A DNA stretch of 64,000 nucleotides, taken from the NCBI RefSeq assembly GCF_000420325.1, contig NZ_ATUS01000001.1, positions 624,463-688,462 on the forward strand. The letters are read 5' to 3'. This DNA is from Spongiibacter tropicus DSM 19543 (lineage in GTDB: Bacteria; Pseudomonadota; Gammaproteobacteria; Pseudomonadales; Spongiibacteraceae). Position 1 is the stretch's first letter. The number at the start of each line of letters is the position of its first letter. Below are positions 16,029 through 21,972 of this stretch, one piece after another. The notes beneath the pieces are model-generated. The model was given only the letters and a program-made list of their open reading frames with translations, did no database searches and had not been told where the DNA came from. Made by a program: the position numbers and the translations under genes.

Positions 16029-16961
16029 TTAGGAGGACTGTTGTTGCTGCGCAGTATTGCCCGGCGCCGGCGAGCCGCCGTCCAGATCAATACGCTCTAC
16101 ATCGACGGCAACGGACATCTGCTGCTGAACACCGCCGCCAAAGACAACGCCGCGCAGGGGGGTTACATCGCTGTAGTCACGCCCCCAGGCCGTTGTGATG
16201 TGTTTGCCCGCCACTGCGATGCCGTTAGTGGGATCGAAATCAAACCAGCCCACACCCGGCACATACACCGCAAACCAGGCGTGGGAGGCATCGGCGCCCT
16301 TCAATTTTTCCTGTCCCGGCGGCGGCAGGGTTTCCAGATAACCGCTCACGTAGCGCGCCGCAAAACCCATGCTACGCAGCGCGCCAATGGCAAGCTGAGC
16401 AAAGTCCTGACAGACACCGCGCTTCTGGGCCATGACTTCATCGAGAGGCGTGGCGATCGTGGAAAAACCGGGGTCGTAGATGAAATCCTTGAAAATACGC
16501 TCATTCAGGGTTTGCACCGCACGGATAAACGGCGCGCCATCGGCGAACAGGTCGGCAGCGAATTTTGCCAGTTCTGCACTGGCAATAATCATCGGCGAAT
16601 CATAGCGGTATTCCACCGCCTCAATATCGTCGGCAAACGCACACTGATCCAGCGCCGCGCGCACCTCGGCGCAGCTGGTCGAACTGCTGAACAGGTTGCG
16701 TTCAGCGGGGTCGACCTCCACATCGCTATCCACACGCACTTCCAGACGCTTGTGCGGCTCTTCCACATTGAAGCTGAGCAGTGTATTGCCGAAATAGTCC
16801 TGGCGATGCTGTTTGATGCTCGGATGAGGGGAAATGGTGACTTCGCTGCGCAACACGCGTTGGACCAGAGTATTTCGCGGAATCAGATAGGCCAGACTGT
16901 AGCCCCGGCTGACCTGATCAGCATAGTCGTATGCGGTGGTGTGACTGACACGGTATTTCAT
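16029..16961 (-). CDS. Transglutaminase-like cysteine protease/ligase domain protein
   Basis: A 310-residue cytoplasmic-looking protein with an N-terminal beta-rich domain (about 1-90, YRVSHTTAYDYA) followed by a transglutaminase core. The catalytic triad is visible: C184 in RGVCQDFAQ, H227 in ASHAWF and D243 in FDFDPTN. There is no signal peptide. It is the last gene of a set with ATP-grasp and alpha-E genes; its ATG overlaps the stop of the fused gene by four bases (ATGA). Comparative genomics has linked these three families as a probable peptide-modification or peptide-ligation system, where the transglutaminase-like enzyme might cleave or transfer the peptide. The true substrate is unknown. 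Confidence 0.85.
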   Translation of the reverse strand: MKYRVSHTTAYDYADQVSRGYSLAYLIPRNTLVQRVLRSEVTISPHPSIKQHRQDYFGNTLLSFNVEEPHKRLEVRVDSDVEVDPAERNLFSSSTSCAEVRAALDQCAFADDIEAVEYRYDSPMIIASAELAKFAADLFADGAPFIRAVQTLNERIFKDFIYDPGFSTIATPLDEVMAQKRGVCQDFAQLAIGALRSMGFAARYVSGYLETLPPPGQEKLKGADASHAWFAVYVPGVGWFDFDPTNGIAVAGKHITTAWGRDYSDVTPLRGVVFGGGVQQQMSVAVDVERIDLDGGSPAPGNTAQQQQSS

Positions 16962-19471
16962 GATGACAGGCGCCCCCCTTGATCCAGCAACTGCGGCCCC
17001 GCGGTATGGTCAAAGTAGCGGTCGGCAATCGCCTGTGCCGTCGCCTTCAAATCTTCTTCCATCGCCAGCAGCAGGGCTTCCAGTTGTACATGGCGACCGT
17101 TTTCGACATCGCATTGCGCCAGCTCACTTGGCTGAGACAGCAGCAGCGTATTGGCCGCTTTGAGCAGACAGCGCCGATCCTGCCCCATCTGCAGGCGAGA
17201 ATCCGATGCCGACAGGGCTTCCAGATGATGTTGCAGGGAATCCAGTTGGAAGGCCACCGAACGCGGGTTTTCGTGATCGAACAACAACAGCTCCAGCCCT
17301 TTCTCCAGCCGGTAGCCGCTGCGGTAATAGCGCTTGTAGACGATCCGCGATTCCAGACTGGCCAATACCGGCTTCAGCAGGGAAATCGGGCCATCTGCCT
17401 CCACCCCCGGCACCAGGGTATGGCGAAGCAGCTCCAGACTTTGCAGGGCGCGCTCAATGCGTCGCCCCATCTCCATAAATCGCCAGGCGCGCGACCGCAC
17501 CATGCTTTCCTGGCTCAAGCCCGACAGGGCCAGCAAGGTGGTGACCAGAGGATCAAACAGCTCTTCCGGCGCCGACTGCAATTGCCGCGCAAGATGCCGG
17601 TTGAGGTAATCCATGCCGTCGCGAATATCATTGATCAGTCGCAGCATGTCGGTCGAAAACAACTCTTTCACACCATCAGCGGCGTGCAGGATCGACTCAA
17701 GATTACTGGCGATGCTGCCTATTCGCGCACGATTCGCGACGACATCCAGCAACTCCTGCTCGGGCGCCTGCAGGTTTTCTTCGGTCGTAAAACCCGGATA
17801 GGTATCGGTGATGTGTGTGACGGCTTGCAACAGCGTTGTCAGCATCTCCGTTGGGAGCGGCTCAATGCTGTGCAATTCTTCAAAGATGGTTCGCGTCAGG
17901 CGCAGCCCCGATTCAGCGCGCTCGGCATAGCGGCCGAACCAGAACAGGTTCTCCACCACCCGGCTGGGCAGACTCAGGCTGCCCTCTGGCCCGCGACTCT
18001 GCTCCCCGTCGATATTGCTGATCTGCGCCTCGGGTTCGGAGGCCAGAATCCAGGTGTCCTTGCTGCCACCCCCGTGGCTGACAATATGTCGGGTGTCAGC
18101 CGAGGCACCGACATGCGTCAGCCCGCCCGGCATCACACTGTAAGAACTGCCAGCCGCAACGGTGTAGCCGCGCAGCAGCATGGGGCGACTGCCGAGTTTG
18201 TCGCCGTCCAATACAGCGGTGTGCGATGGCGCGACCGCATACTGCGCAACATAAGCCTGCGGACGCGCCATGACCGAGGCCAACAAGGCGTCGCGCTGCC
18301 CCGGCGCCAGATCTCCGACAAACACACTGTGGTTGTTGTCGCTGCGGTAACAGGGGCGAATCAACAGCTTTTCAAAGTGCTCGCGCACATACTTCAGATC
18401 AGCCGGATCGCCACACCACCAGCTCGGCACTGACGTCAGCCGCAATTCGCGTCCGAGAAAATGACGGGCAATCGCCGGCATATATTTGGCCAGCGCAGGA
18501 TTTTCCAAAATCCCGCTGCCCAGCGGATTTGCCATCGCAACCGCACCGCTGCGCACCACTTCCAGCAATCCCGGCACGCCCAGCCCACCACTGGAATGGC
18601 TGACGAGCGGGTCCGTGTGGCAGTCATCGGTGCGCCGCAACACCACATCCACCCGGCGCAAGCCATCCAACGACTCCAGCCAAAGTGCGCCTTTGCGCAC
18701 CGTGAGGTCCCGGGCCTGAACAAGGGGGTAGCCGAGATAGTTCGCGAGAAACGCATCCTCGAATGAGCTTTCCTGATAGGCACCGCGCGTCAGATACACA
18801 ATCAGCGGCGAGTCCTTGTGTCCCGCCAGTTCCGACAGTTTTCGCCGCCATTGCAGGAAGAAGTTGGCCAGTCGGTGAACGTGGGCATCGCGGAACAGGC
18901 TGGGCATAACCCGGCGGAGCACGGTGCGGTTTTCCAGCGCGTAGCCGGTCCCCGGCGGCGCCTGACTGCGGTCACCGATCACCATCCACTCACCGCTGCG
19001 GTCCCTGACCAGATCGGCCGCATGGAAAATCAGCTGATGCTCACCGGGCAAGCGAATACCATCACAGGCCCGCAGAAAGCCGGGGTGGCCGAAGACCAGT
19101 CCCGGCGGAATCACTTTATTACTAATCAGGGTCCGCGGACCGTAGAGGTCGGCCAGAATCAGATTCAGCAGCTCGGCACGCTCGCGCAGCGCGTTTTCGA
19201 TGTTTTCCCATTCGCCACTGGAGAGAATCATTGGCAGCAGGTCGAGCTGCCAGGTGTGGCTGATATTGAGCTGGTCGCCGGGGCTGTAGCTGGCGCCATC
19301 ATCGCGAAGAATCCGCTTGGCGGTCTGCTGGCGTTTCTGCAGCGCTGACACGCCCATCGACTGCAGCACCTCCATGGGATAGCGCCAATGCTCGCGCAGC
19401 TCACCTTCGGGGCGCAACAGCTCATCAAACTGGCTGTGTTGCGGGCGGTACAAAACAGACTCGGAAGACAT
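16958..19471 (-). CDS. Fused circularly permuted ATP-grasp / alpha-E protein
   Basis: An 837-residue fusion. Residues 1-480 correspond to the circularly permuted type 2 ATP-grasp domain and residues 495-815 to the helical alpha-E domain (starting LPSRVVENLFWFGRYAERAE). The ATP-grasp part lacks key residues present in its neighbour at 20494-21972: LEDNLRVPSG is replaced by IGDRSQAPPG (164-173), VKP by IRP (371-373), and the glycine-rich SGGYG loop by SDNNH. It keeps the ALENR and GGGSKDTWI segments. It may therefore have lost or altered ATP use, possibly throughout this long-form subfamily. It follows the alpha-E gene after 96 bases and overlaps the transglutaminase gene. Confidence 0.85.
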   Translation of the reverse strand: MSSESVLYRPQHSQFDELLRPEGELREHWRYPMEVLQSMGVSALQKRQQTAKRILRDDGASYSPGDQLNISHTWQLDLLPMILSSGEWENIENALRERAELLNLILADLYGPRTLISNKVIPPGLVFGHPGFLRACDGIRLPGEHQLIFHAADLVRDRSGEWMVIGDRSQAPPGTGYALENRTVLRRVMPSLFRDAHVHRLANFFLQWRRKLSELAGHKDSPLIVYLTRGAYQESSFEDAFLANYLGYPLVQARDLTVRKGALWLESLDGLRRVDVVLRRTDDCHTDPLVSHSSGGLGVPGLLEVVRSGAVAMANPLGSGILENPALAKYMPAIARHFLGRELRLTSVPSWWCGDPADLKYVREHFEKLLIRPCYRSDNNHSVFVGDLAPGQRDALLASVMARPQAYVAQYAVAPSHTAVLDGDKLGSRPMLLRGYTVAAGSSYSVMPGGLTHVGASADTRHIVSHGGGSKDTWILASEPEAQISNIDGEQSRGPEGSLSLPSRVVENLFWFGRYAERAESGLRLTRTIFEELHSIEPLPTEMLTTLLQAVTHITDTYPGFTTEENLQAPEQELLDVVANRARIGSIASNLESILHAADGVKELFSTDMLRLINDIRDGMDYLNRHLARQLQSAPEELFDPLVTTLLALSGLSQESMVRSRAWRFMEMGRRIERALQSLELLRHTLVPGVEADGPISLLKPVLASLESRIVYKRYYRSGYRLEKGLELLLFDHENPRSVAFQLDSLQHHLEALSASDSRLQMGQDRRCLLKAANTLLLSQPSELAQCDVENGRHVQLEALLLAMEEDLKATAQAIADRYFDHTAGPQLLDQGGRLSS

Positions 19472-19567: not shown

Positions 19568-20494
19568 TCAGCCAGGCTGAAACCAGTTGTCCTGAATTTT
19601 CAGATGGATACCCGATACCTGTTTCTCCAGCCCATCCAGTGCTGGCAACAGCCGCTGCGGATCATCCATTTCAATATTCTTACCCAGTTTTGCCGCCAAC
19701 TTTTCCACGGCACTGGCCACATCGTCGCCACCGGGCAGGCTGCTCAGCGATGCCTGCATCTGCTCCAGGCAACAGGCCACCGAGCGCGGAAACAGACGAT
19801 CTTCGATCAGGAAGCGGGTAGCATCACCGGCATTCAACGCGACCCGCATTGTGCGCCGGAAAGGAGTAATTGCATCCAGTGAGCTGAGCACGCTGCTCCA
19901 CACCACCTCTATCGATGGCAGCTGCTCTTGTTCGCTGAACTCTGCCGACATACTGGCGCCGGCCTCAATCGTCCGCAGCCCCATGTCGGCGCGTTCAATA
20001 TTGCGACCCAGACGATAGAAATGCCAGGCGCTGTCGCGGCGCATGGTATCCACAATCAGGCCGTTAATCCCCTGGCAGGTACGAATGATTTCCTCAAGGA
20101 ATTCATGGCGATTCCGACGATTAATGCCCTGCTGAATATTCTCACTGACGTAAATCTGGAATTCGTTGATCAGCTCCCAGCTTTCGGGTGGGAGCGTGTC
20201 GCGGCTGGTACGGATATTCTCCCGCACCATTTTCAGCGAGTAATTCAGGGAACCGGAATTGCTCATGTCTTCCAGCAGGAAGCGAATCACGCGTCGCTCA
20301 TCCCGATTGGAAAAACGGCGTTCAAATTCGCGGTGACTGCCACTGGCAATAACCAGGTTGTGCCAGCTGATTCCGGTATCCCGAGGTAAATCCGAAAGCA
20401 GTGATGTGTAAACCTGTATCAGGCGAGCAATACTTTCCACCCGCTCCATGTAACGGGCAAACCAGTAGACCCGTTCAGCAACGCGCGACAGCAT
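19568..20494 (-). CDS. Alpha-E domain protein
   Basis: A 308-residue all-helical protein beginning LSRVAERVYWFARYMERVE, the conserved start of the alpha-E (DUF403) family, which also appears in the C-terminal half of the fused gene downstream. The segment RNIERADMGLRTI in the middle is another family hallmark. The family always occurs with circularly permuted ATP-grasp proteins and probably helps bind the substrate or product; its chemistry is not known. Its ATG overlaps the TGA of the upstream ATP-grasp gene by one base (TGATG), indicating translational coupling. Confidence 0.87.
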   Translation of the reverse strand: MLSRVAERVYWFARYMERVESIARLIQVYTSLLSDLPRDTGISWHNLVIASGSHREFERRFSNRDERRVIRFLLEDMSNSGSLNYSLKMVRENIRTSRDTLPPESWELINEFQIYVSENIQQGINRRNRHEFLEEIIRTCQGINGLIVDTMRRDSAWHFYRLGRNIERADMGLRTIEAGASMSAEFSEQEQLPSIEVVWSSVLSSLDAITPFRRTMRVALNAGDATRFLIEDRLFPRSVACCLEQMQASLSSLPGGDDVASAVEKLAAKLGKNIEMDDPQRLLPALDGLEKQVSGIHLKIQDNWFQPG

Positions 20495-21972
20495 CAGCGC
20501 TCCTCCCTTCTCACAATCCAGGTATCCTTACTTCCTCCACCCTGAGAGGAATTCACCACCAGCGAGCCCTTGCGCAACGCAACACGCGTGAGACCACCGG
20601 TGGTCACCTGCAGTTTTTTGCCTTGCAACACAAAGGGCCTGAGGTCCAGATGCCGGGGCTCTGCCTCCCCCGGGCCGGTAATAACCGGCGTGGTGGACAG
20701 GCTGAGTGTCGGCTGGGCGATGTAGTTGCGCGGATTCTCCTGAACCAGCTTGCGAAACTGCTCGTGATCCTTCTTGCTGGCGTGAGGGCCGACCAACATA
20801 CCGTAGCCGCCAGACTCGTTGGCGGGTTTCACCACCAGCTCCTCGATATGCTCCAGCACATACTCCCGATGTTTAGGGTCGTCGCAGAGCCAGGTTTTCA
20901 CATTCGGCAAAATGGCTTTCTCGCCAAGATAGAATTCGATCATTTTTGGCACGTAGGCGTAGACCACCTTGTCATCTGCCACCCCGGCACCCGGCGCGTT
21001 GACAATGGCCACCTTGCCCGCCTTCCAGGCGCGCATCAGACCGGGCACCCCGAGTACGGATTCCTTGTTGAAGACTTCCGGGTCAAGGAACATATCGTCG
21101 ATACGGCGATAAATCACATCCACCCGTTCGAGGCCGTCAATGGTTTTCATGTAGCAGTAATCGTCGTCATCCACCACCAGATCACCGCCCTCAACCAGCT
21201 CCACCCCCATCTGCTGCGCCAGAAACGCGTGCTCGAAGTACGCCGAGTTGAAGATGCCCGGTGTGAGGATAACAATGACCGGCTTGGATGAGCGCGGAGA
21301 CACCGACGACAGGGTCTCCAGCAGCATGGACGGGTAGTTGTCCACGGGGAGAATCGTGTTGTTCTCGAAGAATTCCGGCAACACCCGCTTGCTGACTTCG
21401 CGATTTTCCAGCATGTAGGCAACACCCGACGGCACTCTCAGGTTGTCCTCCAACACGAAAAATTTCCCGCTGTCATCGCGCACCAGGTCGCAGCCACAGA
21501 TATGCGCCCAAACCCCCTGGGGAGGCGAGAAGCCTTCGCACTCGGGCCGATAATTTTTGGAGTCGTCCAGCAGGTGTCTGGGCAGCACCCCCTCTTTGAA
21601 GATGCGCTGCCCGTTGTAGACATCATCAATGAACAAATTCAGTGCGCGAAGCCGCTGGGTAAGCCCCTCTGCGGTGCGCTGCCACTCAGTGGCATCAATA
21701 ACCCTGGGAATCAAGTCGAAAGGCCAGGTTCTATCGATATTCTCCCCGTCGGAGTAGACCGTAAAACTCACCCCCATATCGCGCACGGTACGCTCCGCAG
21801 CGGTGCGTCGCGCCTCCAGCTCGGCTCTATCAAGCTCTGAAAAATGCTTGACGATAGGCTGAGCAGCTCGCCGCGGCCGACCTTTTGGAGTAATCATCTC
21901 GTCGTAGAACCGACCGCCATCATACTGCGACCAATCGATGCCGGTCGCGCTGTCCCTGCTGCTTTGCGTCAT
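20494..21972 (-). CDS. Circularly permuted type 2 ATP-grasp protein
   Basis: A 492-residue stand-alone ATP-grasp protein (DUF404/DUF407 type). Catalytic residues look intact: E175 and N177 in LEDNLRVPSG (metal site), K382 in VVKPANESGGYGMLVG with its glycine-rich loop, and the closing GGGSKDTWIV near the C-terminus. ATP-grasp enzymes activate a carboxylate as acyl phosphate and join it to an amine or thiol, so a peptide-bond-forming role is likely. It is the first gene of the four-gene operon. No ribosomal precursor-peptide gene is evident beside it. Confidence 0.88.
   Translation of the reverse strand: MTQSSRDSATGIDWSQYDGGRFYDEMITPKGRPRRAAQPIVKHFSELDRAELEARRTAAERTVRDMGVSFTVYSDGENIDRTWPFDLIPRVIDATEWQRTAEGLTQRLRALNLFIDDVYNGQRIFKEGVLPRHLLDDSKNYRPECEGFSPPQGVWAHICGCDLVRDDSGKFFVLEDNLRVPSGVAYMLENREVSKRVLPEFFENNTILPVDNYPSMLLETLSSVSPRSSKPVIVILTPGIFNSAYFEHAFLAQQMGVELVEGGDLVVDDDDYCYMKTIDGLERVDVIYRRIDDMFLDPEVFNKESVLGVPGLMRAWKAGKVAIVNAPGAGVADDKVVYAYVPKMIEFYLGEKAILPNVKTWLCDDPKHREYVLEHIEELVVKPANESGGYGMLVGPHASKKDHEQFRKLVQENPRNYIAQPTLSLSTTPVITGPGEAEPRHLDLRPFVLQGKKLQVTTGGLTRVALRKGSLVVNSSQGGGSKDTWIVRREER

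Follow-up and report, generated by a model that had tools for sequence, protein, structure and literature searches.

Subfamily-wide loss of Mg-ATP residues in an ATP-grasp domain fused to Alpha-E, and its probable role as a non-catalytic partner of an intact paralogue

The window analyzed here, a stretch of 64,000 nucleotides from Spongiibacter tropicus DSM 19543 (contig NZ_ATUS01000001.1, positions 624,463 to 688,462), contains a compact cluster of four genes on its minus strand. They encode a short circularly permuted (CP) ATP-grasp protein, a stand-alone Alpha-E protein, a long protein in which an ATP-grasp domain is fused to Alpha-E, and a transglutaminase-like protein. The short (P0002) and Alpha-E (P0003) genes overlap by 1 base, and the long (P0001) and transglutaminase (P0004) genes by 4 bases. 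Modules combining ATP-grasp, Alpha-E and transglutaminase proteins are widespread, and their reaction is not established in the portions of PMC6376114 and PMC5666114 consulted. This article addresses the long form, in which the residues that position Mg-ATP have been lost across the sampled subfamily. The features of the cluster are the following.

16958..19471, minus strand: long form P0001, 837 amino acids, a pseudo-ATP-grasp (CP_ATPgrasp_2) and Alpha-E fusion (open frame, Pfam, AlphaFold2).
18110..19234, minus strand: CP_ATPgrasp_2 domain of P0001, residues 80-454 (Pfam PF14403, 434.5 bits).
18950..18979, minus strand: IGDRSQAPPG, replacing the Glu-x-Asn metal motif LEDNLRVPSG (BLASTP alignment, subfamily counts).
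18497..18520, minus strand: GSGILENP, replacing GAGVADDK, with the presumed ATP-phosphate lysine K335 gone (subfamily counts).
18329..18361, minus strand: IRPCYRSDNNH, replacing VKPANESGGYG, the lid loop, with Glu386 and the glycines gone (alignment).
17012..17971, minus strand: Alpha-E domain of P0001, residues 501-820 (Pfam PF04168, 221.4 bits).
20494..21972, minus strand: short form P0002, 492 amino acids, a circularly permuted ATP-grasp paralogue in which no site residue is missing; presumably the active partner.
19568..20494, minus strand: stand-alone Alpha-E protein P0003 (PF04168, 254.7 bits).
16029..16961, minus strand: transglutaminase-like protein P0004, with Cys184, His227 and Asp243 present.

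P0001 belongs to the CP_ATPgrasp_2 family by profile match and by fold. Its PF14403 match covers positions 1-373 of the 374 in the profile and its PF04168 match positions 1-294 of 294, and a profile search of the window genome for CP_ATPgrasp_1 returned two matches, P0001 and P0002. The AlphaFold2 model of P0001 has a mean predicted local distance difference test score (pLDDT) of 91.1 and superimposes on the solved family structure 3n6x with Z 43.2 and a root-mean-square deviation of 3.0 over 443 aligned residues. The model of P0002, a protein that scores 522.8 bits against 3n6x, reaches Z 44.8. Both models also match GspS, YgiC, YjfC and the trypanothione synthetase of L. major (Z 20 to 25), the overall fold being common to these enzymes and the long form with Z 20.8 to 24.7. 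Modelling of the site had been proposed in the original prediction, which was made from the letters of the window; what the models provide is an intact predicted fold.

The same prediction held that the fused domain appears to have lost ATP and metal site residues, and named three replacements relative to the neighboring paralogue. All three were recovered at aligned places by BLASTP, which gave 156/470 identities (33%) between P0001 and P0002: LEDNLRVPSG (P0002 174-183) corresponds to IGDRSQAPPG (P0001 165-174), VKP (381-383) to IRP (371-373), and SGGYG (387-391) to SDNNH (377-381). Gly166 and Arg168 of P0001 occupy the Glu-x-Asn metal positions. The loss extends further than had been noticed, to K335 and E386, which are Pro (Pro325) and Arg in P0001 (residue positions 162-482 are given in the numbering of P0002 unless stated). 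P0001 therefore lacks the metal pair, the two phosphate lysines (K335 and K382, the latter being Arg372) and the glycine lid, which are the three residue criteria of a catalytic ATP-grasp ligase; with its fold conserved and its catalytic motifs lost, the long form has the character of a pseudoenzyme.

The roles of these residues were assigned from those given for L. major trypanothione synthetase in the consulted part of a modelling paper. In the E. coli GspS sequence, E330-x-N332 and S337 are spaced as in LEDNLRVPS, and K498 and K533 are present; we take E330/N332, K498 and K533 to be Mg-ATP residues of this enzyme. K335 was placed on K498 by eye and in a profile alignment that was not significant. 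In such non-significant profile alignments the Glu-x-Asn of the short form is in register with that of GspS, while Pro325 and Arg372 of the long form fall on K498 and K533, respectively. The Glu-x-Asn motif of the short forms is also that of GspS and YgiC, and the Mg-ATP residues carried by GspS, YgiC and trypanothione synthetase are missing from the long form. For yeast glutathione synthetase, the section of PMC2845819 consulted names four acidic residues, Asn not being among them.

To place P0001 in its subfamily, 95 long forms were compared with 42 short forms. The long set comprises 15 proteins from class genomes, one of them that of the window, and 80 from named loci, which are the best 80 of 585 candidates, so that fusions less like the query could be missed. 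No two of the sequences are identical, and clustering the 95 at 80% domain identity leaves 87 groups. The named loci come from 12 named phyla, and 43/80 belong to Pseudomonadota. Of the short forms, 16 come from class-genome or window loci and 26 lie beside long forms in named loci.

The loss of Mg-ATP residues is confirmed as real and general across the sampled subfamily. All 42 short forms have the Glu-x-Asn pair, and none of the 95 long forms does. Position 175 is Glu in all 42 short forms and is spread in the long ones over A (25), G (24), S (21), N (13), D (5), K (3), T (2), E (1) and R (1); position 177, Asn in 42/42, has become R in 87, H in 6, N in 1 and L in 1; and position 179, Arg in 41/42, is Gln in 89/95. 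K335 is present throughout the short forms (42/42) and absent from the long ones (0/95), and E386 is found in 38/42 and 0/95, respectively (R in 47 and P in 26 long forms). The lid residues G388, G389, Y390 and G391 are each present in 42/42 short forms, whereas long forms retain G388 in 2/95, G389 in 37/95 and G391 in 5/95. Taken together, E175, N177, K335, K382, G388, G389 and G391 coexist in every short form (42/42), and long forms keep none of the seven (13 forms), one (48), two (31) or three (3). Other residues are retained, namely S182 in 79/95, D162 in 87/95, and R289 and R290 in 92/95 each. Among the sampled long forms the loss is universal for the metal pair and nearly so for the lid glycines, and VKP to IRP is not universal: K382, present in 42/42 short forms, is still Lys in 73 of the 95 long forms and Arg in 17, so that the Lys-to-Arg change is confined to certain lineages.

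The paralogues being only 33% identical, an alignment or sequencing artefact might be suspected behind the replacements. It is scarcely credible, since the 95 distinct long sequences agree, the Glu-x-Asn segment aligns gap-free between the two forms, and a Zhongshania relative with 69% identity (best segment) carries the same changes; the relatives refute the artefact.

The long rows all fall on one side of a single branch (Shimodaira-Hasegawa approximate likelihood ratio test, SH-aLRT, 100) in a quick subset tree in which a few long branches were flagged. The tree holds 55 long forms, of which 49 are from the set of 95 and six from later loci, and 46 short forms (the 42 plus four later ones). 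Glu-x-Asn being common to GspS and the short forms, the loss is most simply the derived state. The ATP-grasp half of the long forms has a mean pairwise identity of 47%, the Alpha-E half one of 32%, and the former is the higher in 4460/4465 pairs. These data bear on whether the ATP-grasp domain is a relic in decay that persists through its fusion to Alpha-E. Its lid and several catalytic positions are indeed variable, and P0001 departs slightly beyond the subfamily norm, with Arg for Lys at 372, Pro for Ser at 173 and His for Arg at 453 of its own sequence. Against such decay stand the greater conservation of the ATP-grasp half, the spread over 12 named phyla on one branch and the intact predicted fold, and a remnant is disfavored as very improbable.

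Variability within the long forms, ranked over 469 positions, separates two kinds of pocket residues. Lid positions 388, 390 and 391 stand at the 95th-100th percentile and 389 at the 76th, and the lost E175, E386 and K335 at the 72nd, 61st and 58th; the newly acquired Arg177, Gln179, Glu243 and Glu333 are at the 12th-18th. Fourteen positions are conserved in both long and short groups with different residues. From the variable lid and the low variability of the new residues it follows that the Mg-ATP clamp has decayed while part of the pocket has been re-specified and held. With the loss shared over a dozen phyla and a shorter sister gene kept in the same genomes, the long form is probably a working non-enzyme partner and not a decaying gene. 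The replaced lid region has block pLDDT values of 88-94 in the long model vs. 69-72 in the short one, a contrast to be read with care since the alignments differ in depth (73 vs. 26 rows). Given the re-specified part of the pocket, the different active site envisaged in the original prediction is possible as a different binding site, probably a non-ligase one.

An active ligase with a rearranged catalytic center would account for the kept fold, for the many pocket residues retained and for the 14 differently conserved positions, as expected for a new specificity. We consider it improbable: no long form among the 95 has the metal pair, K335 or the lid Glu, nearly all are without the lid glycines, the lost positions other than the Asn now replaced by Arg lie above the domain-median variability, no residue was seen to take over metal binding, and none of the surveyed genomes that have a clear long form is without a further CP-ATP-grasp match.

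This last observation comes from three surveys, in which sister proteins were counted genome-wide by profile match, their site residues being read in the 42 short forms. In the class survey, 15/185 genomes contain a protein that qualifies as a long form in both score and length, and the short form is present in 15/15. In the phylum survey, a clear long form, scoring at least 600 bits, is found in 124/397 genomes. In 124/124 of these there is at least one further, lower-scoring CP-ATP-grasp match, whose score sets it apart from a second clear long form; another 108 genomes have CP-ATP-grasp matches and no clear long form. The genomes of 36 of the 80 named loci were surveyed, covering nine named phyla, and 36/36 have exactly two matches, one long (829-1053 amino acid frame) and one short (479-621 amino acids), often on separate contigs. 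A transglutaminase gene lies immediately 3' of the long gene in 73/76 named loci with room for it, and a DUF2126 gene immediately 5' in 48/73. In the transglutaminase-like proteins (P0004 and 76 from named loci) the Cys is present in 77/77, the His in 77/77 and the residue equivalent to Asp243 in 75/77. The DUF2126 protein, with a transglutaminase-like N-terminus and a predicted amidoligase function, is a member of the same module, and its predicted ligase fold is presumably different from that of the long form. It occurs in 129/397 phylum genomes, 113 of which have a clear long form, and in 32/36 named genomes; at least four others with DUF2126 have a divergent long form below 600 bits (G326, G487, G227, G459), and 11/124 genomes with a clear long form are without DUF2126.

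No fused form with an intact site was seen among the best 80 of 585 loci and the phylum matches listed. Five divergent forms scoring below 600 bits (G299, G326, G487, G227, G459) belong to neither the 95 nor the 124; G511, with 580 bits and an open frame of 814, is probably another. The Glu-x-Asn pair is broken in the four of the five whose motif was read (L117, L118, L119 and L140). The very divergent L117 (3841-6273), L118 (1393-3918) and L119 (996-3608) read LRDH, LEDH and LKDH, respectively, for LEDN. Among the 95, L071 (5418-8036) is the only long form with Glu175, and has His for Asn177, Pro for Lys335 and one lid glycine. P0001 itself is off the subfamily norm at its residues 173 (Ser to Pro) and 453 (Arg to His); the Zhongshania relative (L033) shares the His at 453 and keeps Ser at 173.

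A subfamily-wide loss of Mg-ATP residues together with a constant sister match favors a pseudoenzyme partner, one of three options in the original prediction besides a regulator and a different active site, and so supports its interpretation in part; the loss and the sister match (15/15, 124/124, 36/36) are observed, and the partnership with the short form is what we infer from this co-occurrence. The long form is thus probably a conserved pseudo-ATP-grasp, a non-catalytic subunit of a transglutaminase/amidoligase module that works with its short paralogue. The predicted domain retains a glutathione-synthetase-like fold together with some of the cleft, without the Glu-x-Asn pair, the further lid Glu, one of the two ATP-phosphate lysines and the glycine lid. 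Having lost the residues that position Mg-ATP, the long form is not expected to act as an ordinary ATP-grasp ligase, a conclusion drawn from the residues. The retained pocket may instead bind a substrate, a product or a regulatory ligand, and the Alpha-E domain may dock the long form. A single peptide or protein could then be acted on by the short ATP-grasp and the transglutaminase, and by the DUF2126 protein in genomes that have it. In this arrangement the short form would be the ATP-using ligase and the long form a binding or scaffold part beside the transglutaminase, the physical partnership, the ligand and the reaction all being putative. If one of the two ATP-grasps is indeed a dedicated pseudoenzyme, assays of single proteins could miss the functional unit, and a module of unestablished chemistry gains a testable division of labor; the subfamily would also offer a large, one-branch family for studying the conversion of an ATP-grasp into a non-catalytic part.

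Several observations weigh against this assignment. Of 50 loci with 6 kb of flank on either side, only 19 have the short form within 6 kb of the long gene. DUF2126 too shows a tight linkage to the long form (113/124), and co-occurrence can stem from common pathway membership and not from physical partnership. Asp162 (87/95), Lys/Arg382 (90/95), Arg445 (94/95) and Lys482 (92/95) are kept in the long forms, so that some nucleotide or phosphate binding may survive. Position 175 is acidic in six long forms (five Asp, one Glu), and is Glu in the divergent L118, outside the 95. The short and long profiles gave no significant score against a five-row GspS/YgiC alignment (E 0.21 and 0.43), and the site mapping therefore rests on fold matches, motif order and spacing. 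Lastly, in pull-downs with Anbu as bait, the consulted part of PMC6376114 reports no specific interactions of the proteins of the Yersinia operon; the same part describes this Anbu operon with a single ATP-grasp protein, and no long form is apparent in the pull-down (PMC6376114).

The residues retained and gained in the pocket also suit another function, that of a ligand sensor or regulator binding a nucleotide or a phosphorylated ligand free of metal, in which the conserved Arg in place of Asn stands in for Mg. The net charge of six mapped ATP/metal positions is -1 in 38/42 short forms and +1 or more in 85/95 long forms, Arg replaces Asn177 in 87/95, and Lys or Arg is kept at 382 in 90/95. 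In addition, 73/95 long forms have a Glu after the 'AQ' of a strand that may be the adenine hinge. On the other hand, three of the four lid positions rank with the most variable in the domain, no ligand is known, and Arg177 could merely form a salt bridge propping an empty site. Such a sensor is unlikely overall. More doubtful still is its fuller version, in which the lid has been discarded and a nucleotide or acyl-phosphate product held in the retooled, Arg-containing cleft gates the transglutaminase and the active ATP-grasp across many phyla, making the module a regulated peptide-tagging system.

The nearest known systems are the Anbu operons and the Rlo operon. The CP_ATPgrasp_2 short form of the Anbu operons (solved relative 3n6x) is the same kind of protein and is found with Alpha-E and transglutaminase genes, as described in the sections of PMC6376114 and PMC5666114 consulted, and that of Y. 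bercovieri (YbATP-grasp) was found there to release phosphate from ATP (PMC6376114). The long form differs from it in lacking the metal, lysine and lid residues and in being fused to Alpha-E, the residue comparison having been made with short forms other than that of Yersinia. The Rlo operon of P. aeruginosa, as presented in part of PMC12239564, joins an inactive transglutaminase (RloB) to an ATP-grasp (RloC), and the likeness lies in an ATP-grasp/transglutaminase pair with one inactive partner. In Rlo the inactive partner is the transglutaminase and the ATP-grasp is compared with RimK (PMC12239564), whereas here it is the fused ATP-grasp that looks inactive and the transglutaminase triad that is kept. 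No description of the long form as inactive, and no biochemical assay of it, was found among the papers listed from the open-licence PMC literature; the founding paper (Iyer et al., 2009) is beyond that scope, and a prior description in it is possible.

Twelve further stretches were read: three lie around short genes and seven around long genes, the open frame being over-long in these ten, and two (G227, G459) have DUF2126 and no clear long form. None of them showed the long form fused with the short form or with the transglutaminase; the over-long frames correspond to an open frame running across neighboring genes. The order of genes in the Zhongshania locus L033 is short form, Alpha-E, long form and transglutaminase, with no DUF2126 between them. 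The DUF2126 match of the window genome (L115; contig 1, 1046922-1049462) shares a contig with the long gene at a distance of some 400 kb, and no other module gene was recognized among seven open reading frames (ORFs) of at least 200 amino acids in the surrounding 14 kb. The proteasome family PF00227 has one match in the window genome (L114; contig 1, 2287602-2288114), which by its position beside an ORF judged HslU-like by eye is probably HslV. Down to the cut-off of this search, below which a distant Anbu could fall, the ATP-grasp/Alpha-E module of this genome seems to occur without Anbu.

As for the Alpha-E half, a fold search with the P0001 model gave no strong match to a solved structure, the best helical matches having Z of about 10. 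The Alpha-E domain of P0001 carries an 'ER' at residues 517-518, of which R518 is invariant across the 73-row alignment.

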